Origin: Cellulosilyticum lentocellum DSM 5427
GTDB taxonomy: Bacteria; Bacillota; Clostridia; Lachnospirales; Cellulosilyticaceae
Direction of reading: 5' to 3'
DNA: 64,000 nt
Assembly (NCBI RefSeq): GCF_000178835.2
Contig: NC_015275.1
Span: 2,129,001-2,193,000, forward strand
The translations under genes and the position numbers were made by a program. Positions 40,067 through 49,196 of the stretch are shown here, one piece after another; within the stretch, counting starts at the first letter, position 1, and every line of letters starts with the position of its first letter. The notes beneath the pieces are model-generated. The model was not told the DNA's origin and made no database searches. It saw only the letters and a list, made by a program, of their open reading frames with translations.

Positions 40067-43000
40067 ATGAAGAAAAATGGTTTACGAGGTTTAGTCCAAG
40101 CACTAGTTATGTTTGTAATGATTACAAGCAGTAGTATTATTTTTGCTGCTACTGATGCGAACCACCCAGGTTTTAGAGTAGAGGGCAGGTTTCTTTATGA
40201 TAACCAGGGTGAAAAAACGATTCTTTATGGCATTAATAAGATGGTTGTATGGATGGATAAAGATGGACAACCATCCTTTTCTGAAATTGCTAAAACGGGT
40301 GCTAATTGTGTGAGAATCGTATGGACAACGAAAGACGGTACAGCAGAAGAATTAGATACTGCCATTAGGAACTGTCGTGCAGAGCATATGATTCCTATGG
40401 TAGAACTTCATGATGCTACTGGTGACTTTAGTAAGCTAACAAGCTTAATAGATTGGTGGGTTGATCCTGATACTGTAAATGTCATTAAGAAGCATGAAGA
40501 ATACCTTCTAATTAATATTGGTAACGAAGTTGGTGATGCAAATGTTTCTGATACAACATTTACAAATGGATATATTGAAGCTGTTACTAGAATGAGAGCA
40601 GCAGGTATTCATGTTCCGTTGATTATAGATGCTTCGACTTGGGGACAAGATATTAATAAACTTCAAGCATGTGGCCCAGACATTTTAGCCGCCGACCCAG
40701 ATTCAAACTTAATGTTTTCAGCACATTTATGGTGGCCTTATATGTATGGTCATTCTGATCAAAAAGTAATTGATGAACTTACAGAATCTGCTAATATGGG
40801 ACTTCCACTTGTTATAGGTGAGTTTGCTAATCAATGGGAACAAACGACGCAGGGGCAAATTCCTTATAAAACAATTATGGAATATTGCGCTAAGCTTGAA
40901 ATCGGTTATTTAATTTGGTCATGGGGGCCTGGTAATAATCCACAGACATTCCTTGATATGACCACTGATGGTACATTTGATACAATGCAAGACTGGGCAA
41001 AAGAAATGGTTTTTGAGAATCAGTATGCCCTTGCAAATCTTGCTGAAAAGCCAGCTTCTATGCTAACGAGCCTCCCAGCAGGAATGCCTAATGAACCACT
41101 ACCTAGTGGTAATCTAGCTCAAGGAAAAACTGTAACCTATTCTACAAAAGAAAGTAGTGCTTTTGAAGGGAATTGTATTACAGATGGTGACCTAAGTACA
41201 CGCTGGGCATCTGATGCAAATTCTCAAACAGATTGGGTATGCATCGATTTAGGAGAAACAAAAGAGATTAATGAAGTACTTATCAAATGGGAAAATGCTT
41301 ATGCAACACAATACCAAATTCAAGTTTCTAACGATGCAAATACTTGGACCGATGTTTATAGAACATATAATGGAAAAGGTGGTAGTGAAGATATCTCTAT
41401 TTCAGCTTCTGGACGTTATATAAGAATTTACTGTACGCAAAAGTATGGCTATACCTGGGGGTACTCTATTTATGAAGTTGGTATTTACGGGCCAGAATCC
41501 AAAGAAGCTGCTTCTGTTTCTCCAACAGTTGCAGTGTTTGATAAGAATGTAACAAATCAAGAGGATTTAGTGTTTACATTAGATTCAAAAGCCAACATAT
41601 TGGTTTCAGTTAAAAATGGCAGTGCTATTTTAAATAGAGGTTCTGATTATGTGATTTCTGGAGAGACATTAACCATTACAAAAGAGTATCTTGCAAACCT
41701 TGAAAAAGGTACAATCCAATTAACATTAGTTTATGATAGTGGCGTAAATCCTGTTATGAATATTGCGATTGGAGATACATCACCTATTTCTTCTTTAAGT
41801 CCAAGTAGAGTAGAATTCAATAAGAAAAATGGTGCAGATAAAGATATTACCATTACATTAAACAATAGCAATAATACGTTATTTGGTATTTTTAATGGCA
41901 CTCAATCTTTAGTAGAAGGTATAGATTATAGTGTAAATGGTAAAGCGGTTATCATTTCTAAATCATATTTAGCGACACTAACACTTGGTACGACAAATCT
42001 TAAATTTAACTTTGAAAAAGGAACAGATTTAAGTTTAATGGTTGTTGTTACCGATTCATCTGAAAGCTCAGTACTAGTGGCTACAACTGCTGCATTTGAA
42101 AAAGCAGCACAAGCTGATATAAATGCAACCATGATATTAAATGGTAATACGTTAGCATCTATTTTAAATGGTGAAGTAGCATTAGTAGAAGGTACTGATT
42201 ATACAGTTAATAATAGCACCGCAATCATTTCTAAGGATTATCTTAAGACATTATCTATAGGTCAAACAACATTAACATTTGTTTTTAGTGCAGGTGCAAA
42301 TGCTACATTAACTGTTACAGTTACCAATACAGTGCCTGACTCTGCTATTACACCTACTTTAGGAGAATTCGATATAGCAGTACCTAAAGATATGATGATT
42401 GAATTAATGCTTAATGGAAATACATTTGAAAAAATAACAAATGGTAGCTACACGTTAGTTAAAGGTGTGGATTATACAATTAATGAGACAACCATTACTT
42501 TAAGTAAAAATTATCTGGCAACTTTAAAAATGGGTACATCATTACTTACTTTTGTATTTAGTGGCGGTTCTAACCAAAAGCTTTCAATAAAAATTCAAGA
42601 TACCTCAACTGTTCCGCCTACAACTCATCTACAAGTCACATTCAACAACTGCAATTTGAGCGAGAAAACAAATTCCTTAATGCCAAGATTTAAAGTTACA
42701 AACACAGGGGCTGATGCAATTGATTTATCCGATGTAAGGTTACGTTATTACTTTACAACAGATGGCAATCAAGAAAATTTCTTCTGGTGTGACTGGTCTC
42801 AAGTTGGAAATTCCAATGTTAAAGGAACATTTGTAAAAATGGACAATCCAACAGAAGCAGCAGATTGCTACTTAGAAATTAGCTTTTTAGAAGCTGCTGG
42901 AAGTATTATGCCAAATACAACCATCGATTTACAATGTAGATTTGCAAAGTCAGATTGGACTAATTACAATCAAGCAAATGACTATTCTTTCAATAATAAT

Positions 43001-43075
43001 GGTTTTGATTATAAGACCTGGGATAAAATTACACTTTATTATAACGATAGCTTGATTTCTGGTATAGAGCCATAA
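40067..43075 (+). CDS. Secreted multidomain GH5 beta-mannanase/cellulase-type enzyme with CBM32, four X2 modules and CBM3
   Basis: 1002 residues. A signal peptide (about 28, ending IFAAT) is followed by a GH5 barrel (about 30-315) with acid/base Glu154 in NIGNEVGD and nucleophile Glu252 in VIGEFANQW; the sequence style suits GH5_8 mannanases. Next is an F5/8-type-C module (about 350-475; ITDGDLSTRWAS). Four tandem X2 modules follow (about 480-850), each with EG/GSDYxVxxxxxxISKxYL and a closing TLTFVFSxG pattern. Last is a C-terminal CBM3 (LRYYFTTDGN, FFWCDWSQVGNSNVKGTF) for cellulose. There is no dockerin, so it acts as a free enzyme. Its terminator belongs to the repeated hairpin family. Confidence 0.88.
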   Translation: MKKNGLRGLVQALVMFVMITSSSIIFAATDANHPGFRVEGRFLYDNQGEKTILYGINKMVVWMDKDGQPSFSEIAKTGANCVRIVWTTKDGTAEELDTAIRNCRAEHMIPMVELHDATGDFSKLTSLIDWWVDPDTVNVIKKHEEYLLINIGNEVGDANVSDTTFTNGYIEAVTRMRAAGIHVPLIIDASTWGQDINKLQACGPDILAADPDSNLMFSAHLWWPYMYGHSDQKVIDELTESANMGLPLVIGEFANQWEQTTQGQIPYKTIMEYCAKLEIGYLIWSWGPGNNPQTFLDMTTDGTFDTMQDWAKEMVFENQYALANLAEKPASMLTSLPAGMPNEPLPSGNLAQGKTVTYSTKESSAFEGNCITDGDLSTRWASDANSQTDWVCIDLGETKEINEVLIKWENAYATQYQIQVSNDANTWTDVYRTYNGKGGSEDISISASGRYIRIYCTQKYGYTWGYSIYEVGIYGPESKEAASVSPTVAVFDKNVTNQEDLVFTLDSKANILVSVKNGSAILNRGSDYVISGETLTITKEYLANLEKGTIQLTLVYDSGVNPVMNIAIGDTSPISSLSPSRVEFNKKNGADKDITITLNNSNNTLFGIFNGTQSLVEGIDYSVNGKAVIISKSYLATLTLGTTNLKFNFEKGTDLSLMVVVTDSSESSVLVATTAAFEKAAQADINATMILNGNTLASILNGEVALVEGTDYTVNNSTAIISKDYLKTLSIGQTTLTFVFSAGANATLTVTVTNTVPDSAITPTLGEFDIAVPKDMMIELMLNGNTFEKITNGSYTLVKGVDYTINETTITLSKNYLATLKMGTSLLTFVFSGGSNQKLSIKIQDTSTVPPTTHLQVTFNNCNLSEKTNSLMPRFKVTNTGADAIDLSDVRLRYYFTTDGNQENFFWCDWSQVGNSNVKGTFVKMDNPTEAADCYLEISFLEAAGSIMPNTTIDLQCRFAKSDWTNYNQANDYSFNNNGFDYKTWDKITLYYNDSLISGIEP

Positions 43076-43210: not shown

Positions 43211-43343
43211 TGTGTTGTCTATTACATTAATGCTAGCTGGCTATTTTTGTTTTGTCAGATTAACAACTTACTGGTATGATAGTAGTAAGATAAGAGAGAG
43301 ATAGTGGGTTAGGCTACTATAATCATTAGAAATAGACAACACA
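43211..43343. repeat. Perfect 13-bp inverted repeat around the promoter of the GTPase-NYN gene
   Basis: TGTGTTGTCTATT (43211-43223) and AATAGACAACACA (43331-43343) are exact complements 107 bases apart. The promoter lies between them, and the right arm ends at the frame's first start codon. Confidence 0.75.
43252..43280 (+). promoter_or_regulatory. Promoter of the GTPase-NYN gene
   Basis: TTGTCA (43252-43257), a 17-base spacer and TATGAT (43275-43280), which gives a leader of about 80 bases. A small hairpin (ATAGTGG / GCTACTAT) lies in that leader. Confidence 0.7.
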
Positions 43344-43365: not shown

Positions 43366-46005
43366 ATGAAAAAATTAGTCATTGGAATATTAGCACATGT
43401 AGATGCGGGTAAAACAACCTTATCGGAAAGTATGCTTTATTTAAGCGGGAAAATTCGTAAACTGGGAAGAGTGGATAATCAAGATGCTTATTTAGATACT
43501 TATGACTTAGAAAAGGCAAGGGGAATTACCATTTTTTCTAAACAAGCAATGTTTGAAGTAGCTGAAGCTCAGATTACTTTGTTAGATACCCCAGGACATG
43601 TAGATTTTTCGGCTGAAATGGAGCGAACACTTCAAGTATTAGATTATGCCATTTTAGTGATTAATGGTGCAGATGGTGTGCAAGGGCATACCAGAACATT
43701 ATGGAGACTTCTTGCTACGTATCAAATACCAGTTTTTCTATTCGTTAATAAAATGGATCAACAGGGGACGGATAAGGAGAAATTAATAGAAGAATTAAAA
43801 AAGTGTCTAGATGATAGGTGTATTGAGTTTGGACAAGAGCGTACAGCAGCTTTTTACGACCAGTTGGCCATGTGTGATGAAGCACTGATGGAAGCTTATT
43901 TAGAAACAGAGCATATTGATACTTTACAAATTATGAAGGGTATAAAAGAACGCAAGGTATTTCCATGCTTTTTTGGTTCAGCTTTAAAATTAGAAGGTGT
44001 AGAAAACTTTATGCAAAGTATTGTCAAATATGCTAGTATGCCTTCTTATCCAGAAGCCTTTGGATCAAAGATATTTAAAATAGCTAGGGATGAGCAAGGT
44101 AATCGCCTGACTTATATGAAGCTTACAGGCGGAAGACTTAAGGTGAGAGACACTTTAATAAATCATACTTGGGAAGAAAAAGTGAATCAGATTCGTTTAT
44201 ATTCAGGACAAAAGTTCGAGGCAGTGAATGAGGTAGAGGCAGGTTCTATATGTGCAGTAACAGGACTTACTCAAACTAGTCCAGGAGAAGGTTTAGGGAT
44301 AGAAAGTGATTCATCTGCCCCTGTGTTAGCCCCTGTATTAGCTTATCAGATTATGCTTCCAGAAGGCTATGATCCAAGACTTATGCTACCTAAATTGCGT
44401 CAGTTTGAAGAAGAGGATCCACAGCTGCATATTGTTTGGGATGAACAGTTACAGGAAATTCAAGCACAGATTATGGGAGAAGTCCAAATCGAAATTTTAC
44501 AAACGCTTATAGAAAGCCGTTTTGGTGTCCATGTAACATTTGATTCGGGAAGAATCGTTTATAAAGAAACCATTGCAAATACAGTAGAAGGTGTAGGGCA
44601 TTTTGAACCATTAAGACATTATGCGGAAGTTCACTTATTACTGGAGCCTGGACAGCGAGGAAGTGGTCTTCGATTTGCATTGGGATGCAGTGAAGATGTG
44701 CTAGAAAAGAATTGGCAGAGACTTGTCTTATCTCATTTAGAGGAAAAAGTTCATAAAGGCGTACTCACCGGCTCAGCTATCACAGATATGAAAATAACGT
44801 TAGTCTCAGGACGAGCACATAAAAAGCATACAGAGGGTGGTGACTTTAGAGAAGCTACCTTTCGTGCAGTACGTCAAGGTTTAAAGCAAGCAGAATCTGT
44901 TTTATTAGAGCCGTATTATACTTTTCAGTTAGAAGTACCTGAGAAAATGGTAGGACGAGCTATGACTGATATTGAGAAGATGTTTGGCACATGCGAAATT
45001 TCACAAACAGATGGTGAGTGGGTGACCCTAGTAGGGAGCGCACCGGTTGTTACCATGAGAAACTATCAGAAGGAAGTAGTTGCATACACTAAAGGCCATG
45101 GTAGACTATTTTGTACACTAAAAGGATATGAGCCATGTCATAATGCAGAAGAAGTTATAGAAAATATAGGTTATGATTCTGAAAGAGATATAGAGAATCC
45201 AACAGGTTCTGTATTTTGTACTCAAGGCAGCGGATTTTTAGTAACTTGGGACGAAGTAAAAGACTACATGCATCTTGAAAGTTATCTGCAACAGGAAAAA
45301 GAAACGCTATCAAAAGAAATAGCGAAGCATCAGGATTTACTGACAGAAGAGAAATGGATTGGTTTAGAAGAAATTGATCAAATTATGAATAGAACTTTTT
45401 ATGCGAATCAAGGAGAAAAATCTGCTTGGAAAAAACGTAAAACAGCTCGTGAAAGCTATTATAAGCCTGTTGGTTATACAATGAACCAAAACCAAGATAA
45501 AAAAGAAGAATATCTTCTTGTAGATGGTTATAATATTATCTTTGCATGGCCTGAATTAAAGGAGCTGGCCAATGAAAATATGGATGGTGCCAGAATAAAA
45601 TTATTGGAGAGCTTATGTAATTATCAAGGCATCCGAAAATGTCAGATTATCGTTGTGTTTGATGCTTATCGTGTTCAAGGACATCGAGTGGAAATGATTG
45701 AGTATCATAATATCTATATGGTATATACGAAGGAAGCACAAACAGCAGACCATTATATTGAAAAGTTTGTACATGATCACAAGACAAAGTATCATGTAAC
45801 AGTAGCAACCTCAGATGGATTAGAGCAAATTATCATTAGAGGGCAAGGATGTGCCTTATTGTCTGCTAGAGAGCTGAAGGAAGAAATCGAAAGCGCTAAT
45901 GAAAAAATGATGCAAGCGTATAAGGAAAAACAAGTAGTGGAGCGTAATTATTTAGTGGATGCATTACCTCCTGAAATCAAGCAGCAGATAGAGAAACGTC
46001 CGTAA
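43366..46005 (+). CDS. TetM/EF-G-like translational GTPase fused to a C-terminal YacP/Rae1-like NYN ribonuclease domain
   Basis: About 879 residues. The N-terminal G domain has AHVDAGKTT (G1), RGITIF (G2), LDTPGHVDF (G3) and FVNKMD (G4). Domains II-V of the ribosomal-protection/EF-G type follow to about residue 640 (GVLTGSAITDMKITLVSGRA in domain IV). After a ~60-residue linker, the last ~165 residues form an NYN/PIN-like nuclease: LLVDGYNIIFAW, IIVVFDAYRVQGH, TADHYIEKFVHDH and VTVATSDGLEQ, the pattern of YacP/Rae1. B. subtilis Rae1 cuts mRNA in the ribosomal A site. ATG 43366 is preferred; GTG 43345 is possible. A tetracycline-resistance role is not implied. Confidence 0.85.
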   Translation: MKKLVIGILAHVDAGKTTLSESMLYLSGKIRKLGRVDNQDAYLDTYDLEKARGITIFSKQAMFEVAEAQITLLDTPGHVDFSAEMERTLQVLDYAILVINGADGVQGHTRTLWRLLATYQIPVFLFVNKMDQQGTDKEKLIEELKKCLDDRCIEFGQERTAAFYDQLAMCDEALMEAYLETEHIDTLQIMKGIKERKVFPCFFGSALKLEGVENFMQSIVKYASMPSYPEAFGSKIFKIARDEQGNRLTYMKLTGGRLKVRDTLINHTWEEKVNQIRLYSGQKFEAVNEVEAGSICAVTGLTQTSPGEGLGIESDSSAPVLAPVLAYQIMLPEGYDPRLMLPKLRQFEEEDPQLHIVWDEQLQEIQAQIMGEVQIEILQTLIESRFGVHVTFDSGRIVYKETIANTVEGVGHFEPLRHYAEVHLLLEPGQRGSGLRFALGCSEDVLEKNWQRLVLSHLEEKVHKGVLTGSAITDMKITLVSGRAHKKHTEGGDFREATFRAVRQGLKQAESVLLEPYYTFQLEVPEKMVGRAMTDIEKMFGTCEISQTDGEWVTLVGSAPVVTMRNYQKEVVAYTKGHGRLFCTLKGYEPCHNAEEVIENIGYDSERDIENPTGSVFCTQGSGFLVTWDEVKDYMHLESYLQQEKETLSKEIAKHQDLLTEEKWIGLEEIDQIMNRTFYANQGEKSAWKKRKTARESYYKPVGYTMNQNQDKKEEYLLVDGYNIIFAWPELKELANENMDGARIKLLESLCNYQGIRKCQIIVVFDAYRVQGHRVEMIEYHNIYMVYTKEAQTADHYIEKFVHDHKTKYHVTVATSDGLEQIIIRGQGCALLSARELKEEIESANEKMMQAYKEKQVVERNYLVDALPPEIKQQIEKRP

Positions 46006-47134: not shown

Positions 47135-47373
47135 AGTTACTCCCAAATGTGTCATAGCCATCTGATACCACTTGATCTAAAATGGGTCCTTAGAAGAGCC
47201 TCTCAAATTTCAAAGAAACACATTTTTAGGGACAAGCTATATATAAAAAAGCAATCCTAAAGTAAATAAAAAAATTTTTTGATATATTTTTAAAATATAA
47301 ACTTATTGTATGATGCTTTACTTTTTTTAATCCATCGTTTATATTTGTCTAAGCTAATAATTAAATAAAGAGT

Positions 47374-47539
47374 AGATAGAGGTTGCGGTTTTTAAGAGTA
47401 GATTTGCTGAGCTAAGCACGATGAAGCATTTTAAAAGGAGAAGCCGCCGAAATGGATAGTTGATGCTTTAAGACTATCTTGTTGGGGTTATGTAGAATAT
47501 ACATAACACTGTCACGTAGTTATTCGTGGGGAGCTATCA
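47374..47539 (+). promoter_or_regulatory. Lysine riboswitch (L box)
   Basis: The conserved L-box strings appear in order: AGAGGTTGCGGTTTTTAAGA with GTA, then AAAAGGAGAAGCCGCCGAAA, then CTTGTTGGGGTTATG and CACTGTCACG. The ends pair (GATAG at 47375 with CTATC at 47534) as stem P1. This aptamer binds lysine and, with the terminator 50 bases downstream, switches off transcription when lysine is plentiful. The 240 bases before it (47135-47373) hold only AT-rich sequence in which a promoter must lie; I could not pick it with confidence. Confidence 0.92.
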
Positions 47540-47591
47540 TGACGGACGGTTAATATAGAATAAGTAGTTTTATTCTAAATGAAAGATGACA

Positions 47592-47657: not shown

Positions 47658-49196
47658 ATGGACGCAATTGATGTAGGCTGGTTATCGATTTTACCACCTG
47701 TTATCGCTATTGTATTAGCGTTAATAACAAAAGAGGTTATTTCCTCATTAATTGTAGGTATTTTTTCAGGAACACTTATTTATGCCTTTAGTACAGGTGG
47801 CGGTATTGTTAAAGCAACAGATGTAACCCTTACCCTTATGGGAGAAAAATTAGGTGATAATACATCAATTATTTTATTTTTAGGATTTTTAGGGGCATTA
47901 GTAGCTGTTATTACTATGGCTGGTGGTTCTAGGGCCTACGGAGAATGGGCAGGAAATAAAATTAAAACTAAAAAAGGGGCACAGTTAGGAACTTCTCTTT
48001 TAGGTACCTTAATTTTTATAGATGATTATTTTAACTGTTTGACAATTGGTACAGTAATGAGACCAGTAATAGATAAACATCATATTTCTAGAGCAAAGCT
48101 AGCTTATATTATTGATGCAACAGCAGCACCCATTTGTATTATTGCACCTATTTCTTCTTGGGCAGCTTCAGTTATTTCTCAAATGAATGGGTTAGAAGTG
48201 AATGGGCAAGCACTTAATGGAATGGAAACTTTTATGGCAACTATTCCTTATAACCTTTATGCAATTTTAACTTTAATCATGGTGGTTGTACTTTGTGTTA
48301 CTAATATTGAATTTGGTCCTATGGCAAAGTTTGAAGAAGAAGCTAGAAATAATAAAGGTAACTTAAGTGTCGGAATGGATCAAGAAGGTGGAGATGAGTT
48401 TGCTCGTATGAAAATCTCTTCAAAAGGAAGCGTATTTGACCTTATTATCCCTATTGCAGCACTTATTATATTTGCTATCTTATCAATGCTTTATATTGGT
48501 GGTTACTTTGAAGGTGGTATGACGCTGGCAGAGGGCTTTGGAAATACAGATGCAGGTATTGCACTTGCTATTGCCGGTTTTGGCGCCCTTGTTGTTGCTT
48601 TTATTCTTTTTGTACCACGTCAAATTTTAGATTTTAAAGAGTTTATGGAAGGGATTACAATAGGGGTTAAATCCATGGTAGGAGCCTTTATTATTTTAAC
48701 ATTGGCGTGGACTATTAGTGGGGTATGTAGAGACTTATTAGGCACAGGTGAGTTTGTAGGTGAGTTGGTAAGACAATCTCATATGCCAGCGGCTCTTATT
48801 CCTGCCATTGTTTTCCTTGTGGCAGGGGCTTTAGCTTTTGCTATGGGAACATCATGGGGAACTTTCGGTATACTGATTCCTATTGTTACCATGGTTTGTG
48901 GTTCCGTTGCACCAGAGCTTGTAACAGCAGCGCTTGCCGCTACACTAGCTGGAGCTGTATTTGGAGATCATTGTTCCCCTATTTCAGATACAACAATTCT
49001 TTCTTCGACGGGAGCTGGCTGTAAACATATTGATCACGTTTCATCACAAATTCCGTATACTTTAGTGGTAGCAGCATGTTGTTTTGTAGGTTATTTAATA
49101 GCAGGGTTTACAGCTAATGTGTGGTTAACACTTGGAAGCTCTATTGCATTATTAGGTATTATTCTTGCTATATTAAGTAGAAGAAATAAAAAATAA
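47658..49196 (+). CDS. NhaC-superfamily transporter, predicted lysine transporter
   Basis: 512 residues with about eleven membrane segments. Conserved NhaC-type stretches: GTLIFIDDYFNCLTIGTVMR, DATAAPICIIAPISSWAA, GTSWGTFGILIPI and GDHCSPISDTTILSSTGAG. By sequence alone it would be called a Na+/H+ antiporter. The upstream lysine riboswitch shows that it belongs to the lysine regulon, where NhaC-type proteins have been predicted from comparative genomics to carry lysine. Direction and coupling ion are not shown. Confidence 0.88.
   Translation: MDAIDVGWLSILPPVIAIVLALITKEVISSLIVGIFSGTLIYAFSTGGGIVKATDVTLTLMGEKLGDNTSIILFLGFLGALVAVITMAGGSRAYGEWAGNKIKTKKGAQLGTSLLGTLIFIDDYFNCLTIGTVMRPVIDKHHISRAKLAYIIDATAAPICIIAPISSWAASVISQMNGLEVNGQALNGMETFMATIPYNLYAILTLIMVVVLCVTNIEFGPMAKFEEEARNNKGNLSVGMDQEGGDEFARMKISSKGSVFDLIIPIAALIIFAILSMLYIGGYFEGGMTLAEGFGNTDAGIALAIAGFGALVVAFILFVPRQILDFKEFMEGITIGVKSMVGAFIILTLAWTISGVCRDLLGTGEFVGELVRQSHMPAALIPAIVFLVAGALAFAMGTSWGTFGILIPIVTMVCGSVAPELVTAALAATLAGAVFGDHCSPISDTTILSSTGAGCKHIDHVSSQIPYTLVVAACCFVGYLIAGFTANVWLTLGSSIALLGIILAILSRRNKK

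Follow-up and report, generated by a model that had tools for sequence, protein, structure and literature searches.

A translational GTPase fused to a Rae1-type nuclease in clostridia: a candidate single-gene ribosome-clearance factor

We describe a gene of Cellulosilyticum lentocellum DSM 5427 that joins a translation-factor GTPase to a nuclease. The gene lies in a 64,000-nucleotide stretch of contig NC_015275.1 (positions 2,129,001 to 2,193,000; hereafter the window) with a guanine-plus-cytosine content of about 34%. An unbroken forward-strand frame (43345/43366-46005) encodes a single 879-amino-acid protein composed of an EF-G/Tet-type GTPase and an NYN nuclease. A preliminary description of the window had claimed such a fusion in one frame, and the Pfam domains, together with the unbroken frame, bear it out: five EF-G/Tet-type GTPase domains are followed by a 78-residue linker and a YacP/Rae1-type NYN nuclease. 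The start codon is likely the ATG at 43366, because this ATG is present in all six aligned upstream regions, whereas four of five relatives lack a start codon at the place of the alternative GTG (43345). The features of the gene are as follows.

43366..46005, forward strand: whole fused gene, 879 amino acids, ATG start, stop codon within the range
43375..44034, forward strand: GTPase domain, residues 4-223, G motifs intact, H78 in DTPGH (Pfam GTP_EFTU, E 1.2e-51; alignment)
44071..44541, forward strand: EF-G domains II and III, residues 236-392 (Pfam EF-G_D2, 236-304; EFG_III, 323-392)
44548..44895, forward strand: EF-G domain IV, residues 395-510 (Pfam EFG_IV)
44818..44850, forward strand: domain IV tip signature H-x-K-H-T-E-G-G-D-F-R, residues 485-495 (alignment pattern)
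44899..45144, forward strand: EF-G domain V, residues 512-593 (Pfam EFG_C)
45145..45273, forward strand: conserved extension past domain V, residues 594-636 (alignment)
45274..45507, forward strand: linker, residues 637-714, with disordered parts in the model (predicted structure, length survey)
45364..45399, forward strand: short conserved linker helix, residues 667-678, followed by a basic run (alignment, predicted structure)
45514..45996, forward strand: NYN_YacP (Rae1-type) nuclease domain, residues 717-877 (Pfam PF05991, E 8.1e-55, 185.7 bits against a cut-off of 24.6; structure-database sequence match)
45523..45816, forward strand: conserved Asp codons D720 (45523), D766 (45661), D795 (45748) and D817 (45814) (alignment)

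Conservation was assessed across 108 fused sequences, made up of 28 rows from genomes, among them the window protein itself, and 80 rows from named contigs; two rows are identical. All 80 named loci carry the GTPase and NYN pair in one open frame. As the search used the fused family and these loci are the top 80 of 593, they attest to the recurrence of the fusion and not to its frequency. We found that the G motifs are all intact (VDAGKTT, RGITI, DTPGH, NKMD and GSAL), as the preliminary description had stated, and that the GTPase half has what identifies a translational GTPase of the EF-G/Tet superfamily: the GTP_EFTU domain, G1-G5 and the catalytic His of DTPGH. Residues K16, T17, T18, D74, G77 and D131 are each kept in 108/108 sequences, switch II H78 in 107/108, N128 in 104/108 and S205 in 105/108. 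The nuclease half likewise contains the two motifs first noted for it, LLVDGYNIIFAW and VATSDG, and its best solved-structure match is YacP of Bacillus subtilis (5mq8, 5mq9; E 3e-25). The four conserved Asp residues, which we take to be the active site, align with D7, D53, D81 and D104 of B. subtilis YacP. Variation at these residues had been set beforehand as a refuting test, and we found each of the four in 108/108 sequences. Similarly, 33 of the 43 positions conserved in 41 stand-alone NYN domains stay at 85% or more in 51 fused ones. Four of the five pairs compared gave a ratio of nonsynonymous to synonymous substitution rates (dN/dS) of 0.08-0.11 for the GTPase, 0.06-0.12 for the NYN domain and 0.08-0.25 for the linker, values that are rough because dS was at least 0.7 throughout; the fifth pair yielded a ratio for the NYN domain alone, 0.03, dS having reached saturation in the GTPase and the linker. 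Both halves thus look intact and under purifying selection, with neither decaying.

The preliminary description called the GTPase TetM/EF-G-like, which holds for the fold but not for the family. The solved structures nearest to the GTPase part by sequence are TetO and TetM, and a fold search with the predicted model returned EF-G/EF-2-family chains among the first 50 rows and nothing beyond the sequence results. The best NCBIfam match, tet_protect (NF012153), reached 440.4 bits, under its cut-off of 775. The Tet(M/W/Q) models were missed by more (299.6 against 1100, 275.8 against 1425 and 248.7 against 1420 bits), so that no listed Tet model's cut-off was reached; the EF-G model TIGR00484 gave 309.3 bits, under its cut-off of 659.4. 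The tip of domain IV also differs: it reads H-x-K-H-T-x-G-G-D-F-R in place of the YYSPVSTPADF of TetM and TetO. The pattern H.KHT.GGDF occurs in 10/12 fused and 6/8 unfused rows, and in 0/4 Tet-like and 0/5 EF-G rows; three of the four Tet-like rows have YYSPVSTPADF, and the EF-G rows have YHDVDSSE or a near variant. The EF-G sequence YHDVDSSE is absent from the tip, yet H485 aligns with the EF-G tip His, and K487 is kept in 105/108 fused sequences. The extension past domain V (residues 594-636) is found in fused and in most unfused members, and most of the unfused proteins seen stop near its end. Judged by sequence, the GTPase is a subfamily distinct from both EF-G and Tet, with a tip of its own that is common to its unfused relatives. 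Around the extension (window 45136-45273) we also observed conserved C591 (107/108), H592 (90/108), C618 (104/108) and H636 (105/108), residues that could bind metal.

These comparisons bear on a role in antibiotic defence. According to passages of PMC4342817 (Atkinson 2015, BMC Genomics 16:78), the domain IV tip loop contacts tetracycline in Tet proteins and tRNA in EF-G, and Tet proteins of ten Clostridiales species have acquired a YacP-like NYN domain. Its passages on the fusion suggest that the RNase activity of these NYN-bearing Tet proteins may serve resistance, and report no experiment. On this proposal the window protein would be a Tet-like ribosomal protection protein with the RNase as an added resistance mechanism, which would agree with tet_protect as the top NCBIfam match and with TetO and TetM as the top structure matches. 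A tetracycline response is less likely, however, because the scores fall under the Tet cut-offs (440 bits against 775 for tet_protect itself) and the Tet tip is replaced by one whose Lys is nearly invariant. In addition, the gene resides in its own genome on a single contig of 4,714,237 bases, and a screen of 72,556 plasmid records gave just 2 matches spanning 80% or more of the query, one of which looks like chromosome. We consider antibiotic defence unlikely. Public records name members of the family either 'translation factor GTPase family protein' or TetM/TetW-type resistance protein; the record of one fused member (H2) bears the latter label, which neither the scores nor the domain IV tip support, and resistance surveys may overcount through such labels.

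A mobile resistance gene was considered separately and rejected after a search of plasmid and phage records, in which two plasmid and two phage records covered at least 80% of the query. The 518-kb plasmid record looks chromosomal because it carries secA; the other is from Agathobacter rectalis. The two phage records, unverified and filed as 'Bacteriophage sp.' (L241, MT835563.1; L242, MT835514.1), carry the fused gene among housekeeping-type genes, one with AddB, UvrD-helicase, FeoB and Glu/Gln-type tRNA synthetase domains and the other with MgtE and metabolic domains, and because of this content they look like bacterial contigs filed as phages.

The fusion is widespread, in line with the phylogenetic spread that the preliminary description had asked to be checked. 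We found the GTPase in 169/294 genomes of the order sample (E at most 1e-130), 124/293 of the class sample (E at most 1e-140) and 22/299 of the phylum sample. Frames of at least 840 amino acids occupy 132 of the 150 GTPase places listed (of 171) in the order sample, and frames of at least 820 amino acids occupy 99/126 places in the class sample. Trees were built from chosen subsets by fast searches, with no bootstrapping, and roughly half of the inner branches are poorly supported. The GTPase tree, with 68 rows (51 of the 108 fused, 13 unfused and 4 Tet-like) and rooted on the Tet-like sequences, placed all 51 fused proteins in one clade (Shimodaira-Hasegawa-like approximate likelihood ratio test 97), with the unfused ones mostly basal. 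The sole unfused gene inside the fused clade is that of Ligilactobacillus salivarius, on a long branch, which may represent a transfer with loss of the nuclease. The NYN tree, with 92 rows (the 51 fused and 41 stand-alone), is weakly resolved and needs four state changes, and its strong branches are compatible with one origin. The L. salivarius gene lies on a megaplasmid (L208, 2402-4920), where its neighbours are rpsN (S14) and a gene with a putative role in metal homeostasis; transposase genes flank it on either side.

We found that the fused gene appears to have taken the place of stand-alone rae1. NYN_YacP was detected in 268/294 genomes of the order sample, with exactly one match in all but five. 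Two of these five (G018 and G019) have both a fused and a stand-alone copy, the fused gene of G019 running off a contig end and the assemblies being rated at 6 and 5% contamination, respectively; two more, G017 and G039, combine the fused gene with a rae1 remnant, and in G145 one NYN is split into two pieces. In G017 and G039, which belong to different families, the decayed rae1 still lies between trmH-like and sigH-like genes. Similarly, C. lentocellum has no second NYN_YacP match at E 0.001 and no NYN in its cysS-mrnC-trmH-rae1-sigH region, where a PA14-domain protein is encoded between trmH and sigH. Of the 12 loci compared that have an intact stand-alone gene, 9 place it with trmH-like and sigH-like genes, usually with cysS-like and mrnC-like genes upstream; the mrnC, trmH and sigH families were confirmed by Pfam in the C. 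lentocellum genome and named by resemblance, by eye, elsewhere. Read most simply, these gene arrangements point to a fused gene that, once formed, persisted alongside rae1 and rendered it dispensable in several lineages. Such a replacement would fit a nuclease half that still does Rae1's job. Three genomes (G255, G278 and G165) have a stand-alone NYN outside the rae1 place and an unfused GTPase elsewhere, and these are possible splits of the fusion, given the weakly resolved NYN tree. Among plasmids, twelve Clostridioides difficile records (97-150 kb; H18-H29) carry a stand-alone NYN_YacP-like gene annotated 'NYN domain-containing protein'.

The same neighbourhood has a bearing on an older proposal for YacP, that of Anantharaman and Aravind (2006) as relayed in passages of PMC4342817, under which the protein would be an rRNA or tRNA maturation nuclease, here recruited to the ribosome by the GTPase. 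Stand-alone rae1 does often adjoin a gene for a trmH-like rRNA methylase, with a gene for an mrnC-like RNase III-domain protein close by. However, the fused gene is outside the trmH/mrnC neighbourhood in its own genome, and B. subtilis Rae1 is described, in passages of PMC12320835, PMC10100781 and PMC6613710, as a translation-dependent or A-site mRNA endonuclease at paused or stalled ribosomes, a maturation role for the fused protein being very improbable in our estimation. The same passages describe A-site endonuclease cuts as readying ribosomes for transfer-messenger RNA (tmRNA).

The linker that joins the two halves is long and variable, 62-146 amino acids with a median of 79 among the 108 fused sequences. 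In the predicted model (mean predicted local distance difference test score, pLDDT, 81; predicted template modelling score 0.63), the pLDDT falls below 50 at residues 659-666 and 678-711, and a helix is predicted at 667-678. This helix is conserved, with E669 in 103/108 and I673 in 104/108 sequences, and it is missing from the unfused GTPases compared.

EF-G and Tet proteins place domain IV in the ribosomal A site. We propose, with a probability of roughly one half, that the fused gene encodes a chromosomal single-gene ribosome-clearance factor, in which the GTPase engages a paused ribosome, the tethered nuclease cuts the A-site mRNA and tmRNA finishes the process. In its GTP form, the GTPase would enter the factor site of the paused ribosome and place its His/Lys-rich domain IV tip into the A site. 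GTP hydrolysis would then lead domain IV to withdraw, and the Rae1-type nuclease, tethered by the flexible linker, would take the freed A site and cut the A-site codon. The ribosome, left on a truncated mRNA, would pass to tmRNA, which we found in the C. lentocellum genome. The GTPase would likely act first and the nuclease second, because domain IV and NYN presumably cannot share one A site, and a linker of the length observed would give the reach needed for the second step on the same ribosome. Ribosome binding, an mRNA substrate, the order of events and GTP control of the cut are inferences. More tentatively, the protein could be a GTP-gated mRNA cutter, with the domain IV tip testing or opening the A site and handing over to the nuclease, and with hydrolysis picking which stalled ribosomes are cut; this stricter version is possible but doubtful. 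To our knowledge, it would be the first translation factor and A-site nuclease acting as one enzyme.

Several observations weigh against a ribosome-clearance factor of this kind. Of the 19 class-sample genomes that carry an unfused GTPase, 6 lack NYN, indicating that the GTPase is kept there without need of the nuclease, and many genomes have a stand-alone NYN but no GTPase; each half can thus do without the other. An Arg corresponding by alignment to R118 of B. subtilis is found in 41/41 stand-alone NYN domains but in only 27/51 fused ones, the remaining 24 having Leu or Val (Leu in the window protein, residue 831, 45856-45858), so that contact with the ribosome or the substrate may have shifted. 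Because domain IV and NYN would exclude each other from the A site, the order of the steps is a guess. Finally, within 4.5 kb even the commonest neighbour family is found at no more than 12 of the 108 loci, some of the loci being short.

Several of these points would equally suit two independent jobs on one chain, with the GTPase having its own role at the ribosome and the NYN domain acting as Rae1 at high local concentration, with no GTP gating. The 6 of 19 genomes that have an unfused GTPase and no NYN favour this explanation, as do the length and variability of the linker and the ability of B. subtilis Rae1, according to passages of the Rae1 papers, to work without such a fusion. Yet splitting looks rare, given the single unfused member in the clade of 51 treed fusions, although some genomes with separate copies may be splits, and the conserved linker helix, absent from the unfused GTPases compared, also speaks against it. 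We regard two independent jobs as possible but doubtful. Co-occurrence of the separate halves was also tried as a sign of partnership and was dropped, as it gave no reliable signal: in the class sample, NYN is present in 13/19 genomes with an unfused GTPase and in 8/17 GTPase-negative genomes (Fisher p 0.31). The 17 negatives are the head of a list of 169; the 19 include two partial GTPase matches (G776 and G716), and four genomes whose GTPase frames are short or broken (G721, G632, G725 and G726), all of them NYN-positive, are left out. A stand-alone NYN is present in all 15 genomes of the order sample listed as having an unfused GTPase frame clear of contig ends (among the 150 of 171 matches listed) and in 4/4 such genomes of the phylum sample. 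The overall co-occurrence probabilities (order 2e-9, phylum 1e-6) were not used, because the fusion carries both halves by construction and the genomes are related.

The fused gene may have a promoter of its own.

43252..43280, forward strand: possible promoter TTGTCA-17-TATGAT, with TG preceding the -10 element (motif scan, upstream alignment)

Three of five relatives (L079, L080 and L098) have a similar stretch in the corresponding position, and the candidate is backed solely by this conservation because sites of its kind in the region are not above chance (11 found against 13.0 expected). Directly upstream of the fused gene lies a gene (40067-43075, forward strand) for a 1002-amino-acid protein in which an F5/8 type C domain is joined to four CBM_X2 stretches and a CBM_3 domain that binds cellulose. 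Downstream, a lysine riboswitch (47369-47544, forward strand; Rfam RF00168, 114.7 bits) is located just upstream of an Na+/H+ antiporter-family gene (47658-49196). PADLOC anti-phage defence models matched 0 families at E 0.01.

Fused-length frames prevail in the order sample, and a genome hardly ever has a stand-alone NYN in addition, so that the fused protein seems to be the sole Rae1 of many clostridia. If the ribosome-clearance proposal is true in its GTP-gated form, a GTP-gated cutter would be the standard Rae1 of many clostridia, which bears on the rescue of ribosomes stalled mid-message in these bacteria. The fusion itself has been in print since 2015 (PMC4342817). What the present comparison of sequences adds is a GTPase subfamily with its own tip, a single fused clade with one unfused member, and the apparent replacement of stand-alone Rae1. 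Our literature search, in which most matches were judged by title and the opening of the abstract, found no second paper on the fusion and no experimental test of it, although the main Rae1 papers may contain a mention; the passages of PMC3814617 and PMC11780869 are silent on it, and a search on 'translation factor GTPase family', with matches judged by title, found no paper on the unfused protein.

Among known systems, the Tet-NYN proteins of PMC4342817 are the closest, sharing the architecture and the bacterial group of the window protein as far as its passages describe them. They are called Tet there, with a possible role in resistance, whereas the GTPase of the window protein falls under the Tet cut-offs and has its own tip, and the fusion appears to replace rae1. 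B. subtilis Rae1/YacP shares the NYN domain and all four Asp residues, but it is a separate chain of 181 residues whose gene adjoins the trmH homologue yacO (passages of PMC6613710); in the window protein the NYN is the C-terminal domain of 879 residues encoded elsewhere in the genome, and R118 is replaced by Leu. TetM and TetO, the best PDB sequence matches, have the five-domain EF-G fold and the G motifs in common with the window protein, which differs from them in its domain IV tip, its sub-cut-off scores, and its additional extension, linker and nuclease. Finally, the unfused 'translation factor GTPase family protein', represented by L. salivarius (49% identity to the window protein over residues 1-640) and by clostridial frames of 640-675 amino acids, has the tip in 6/8 rows and the extension in most members, but neither the linker helix nor the nuclease.

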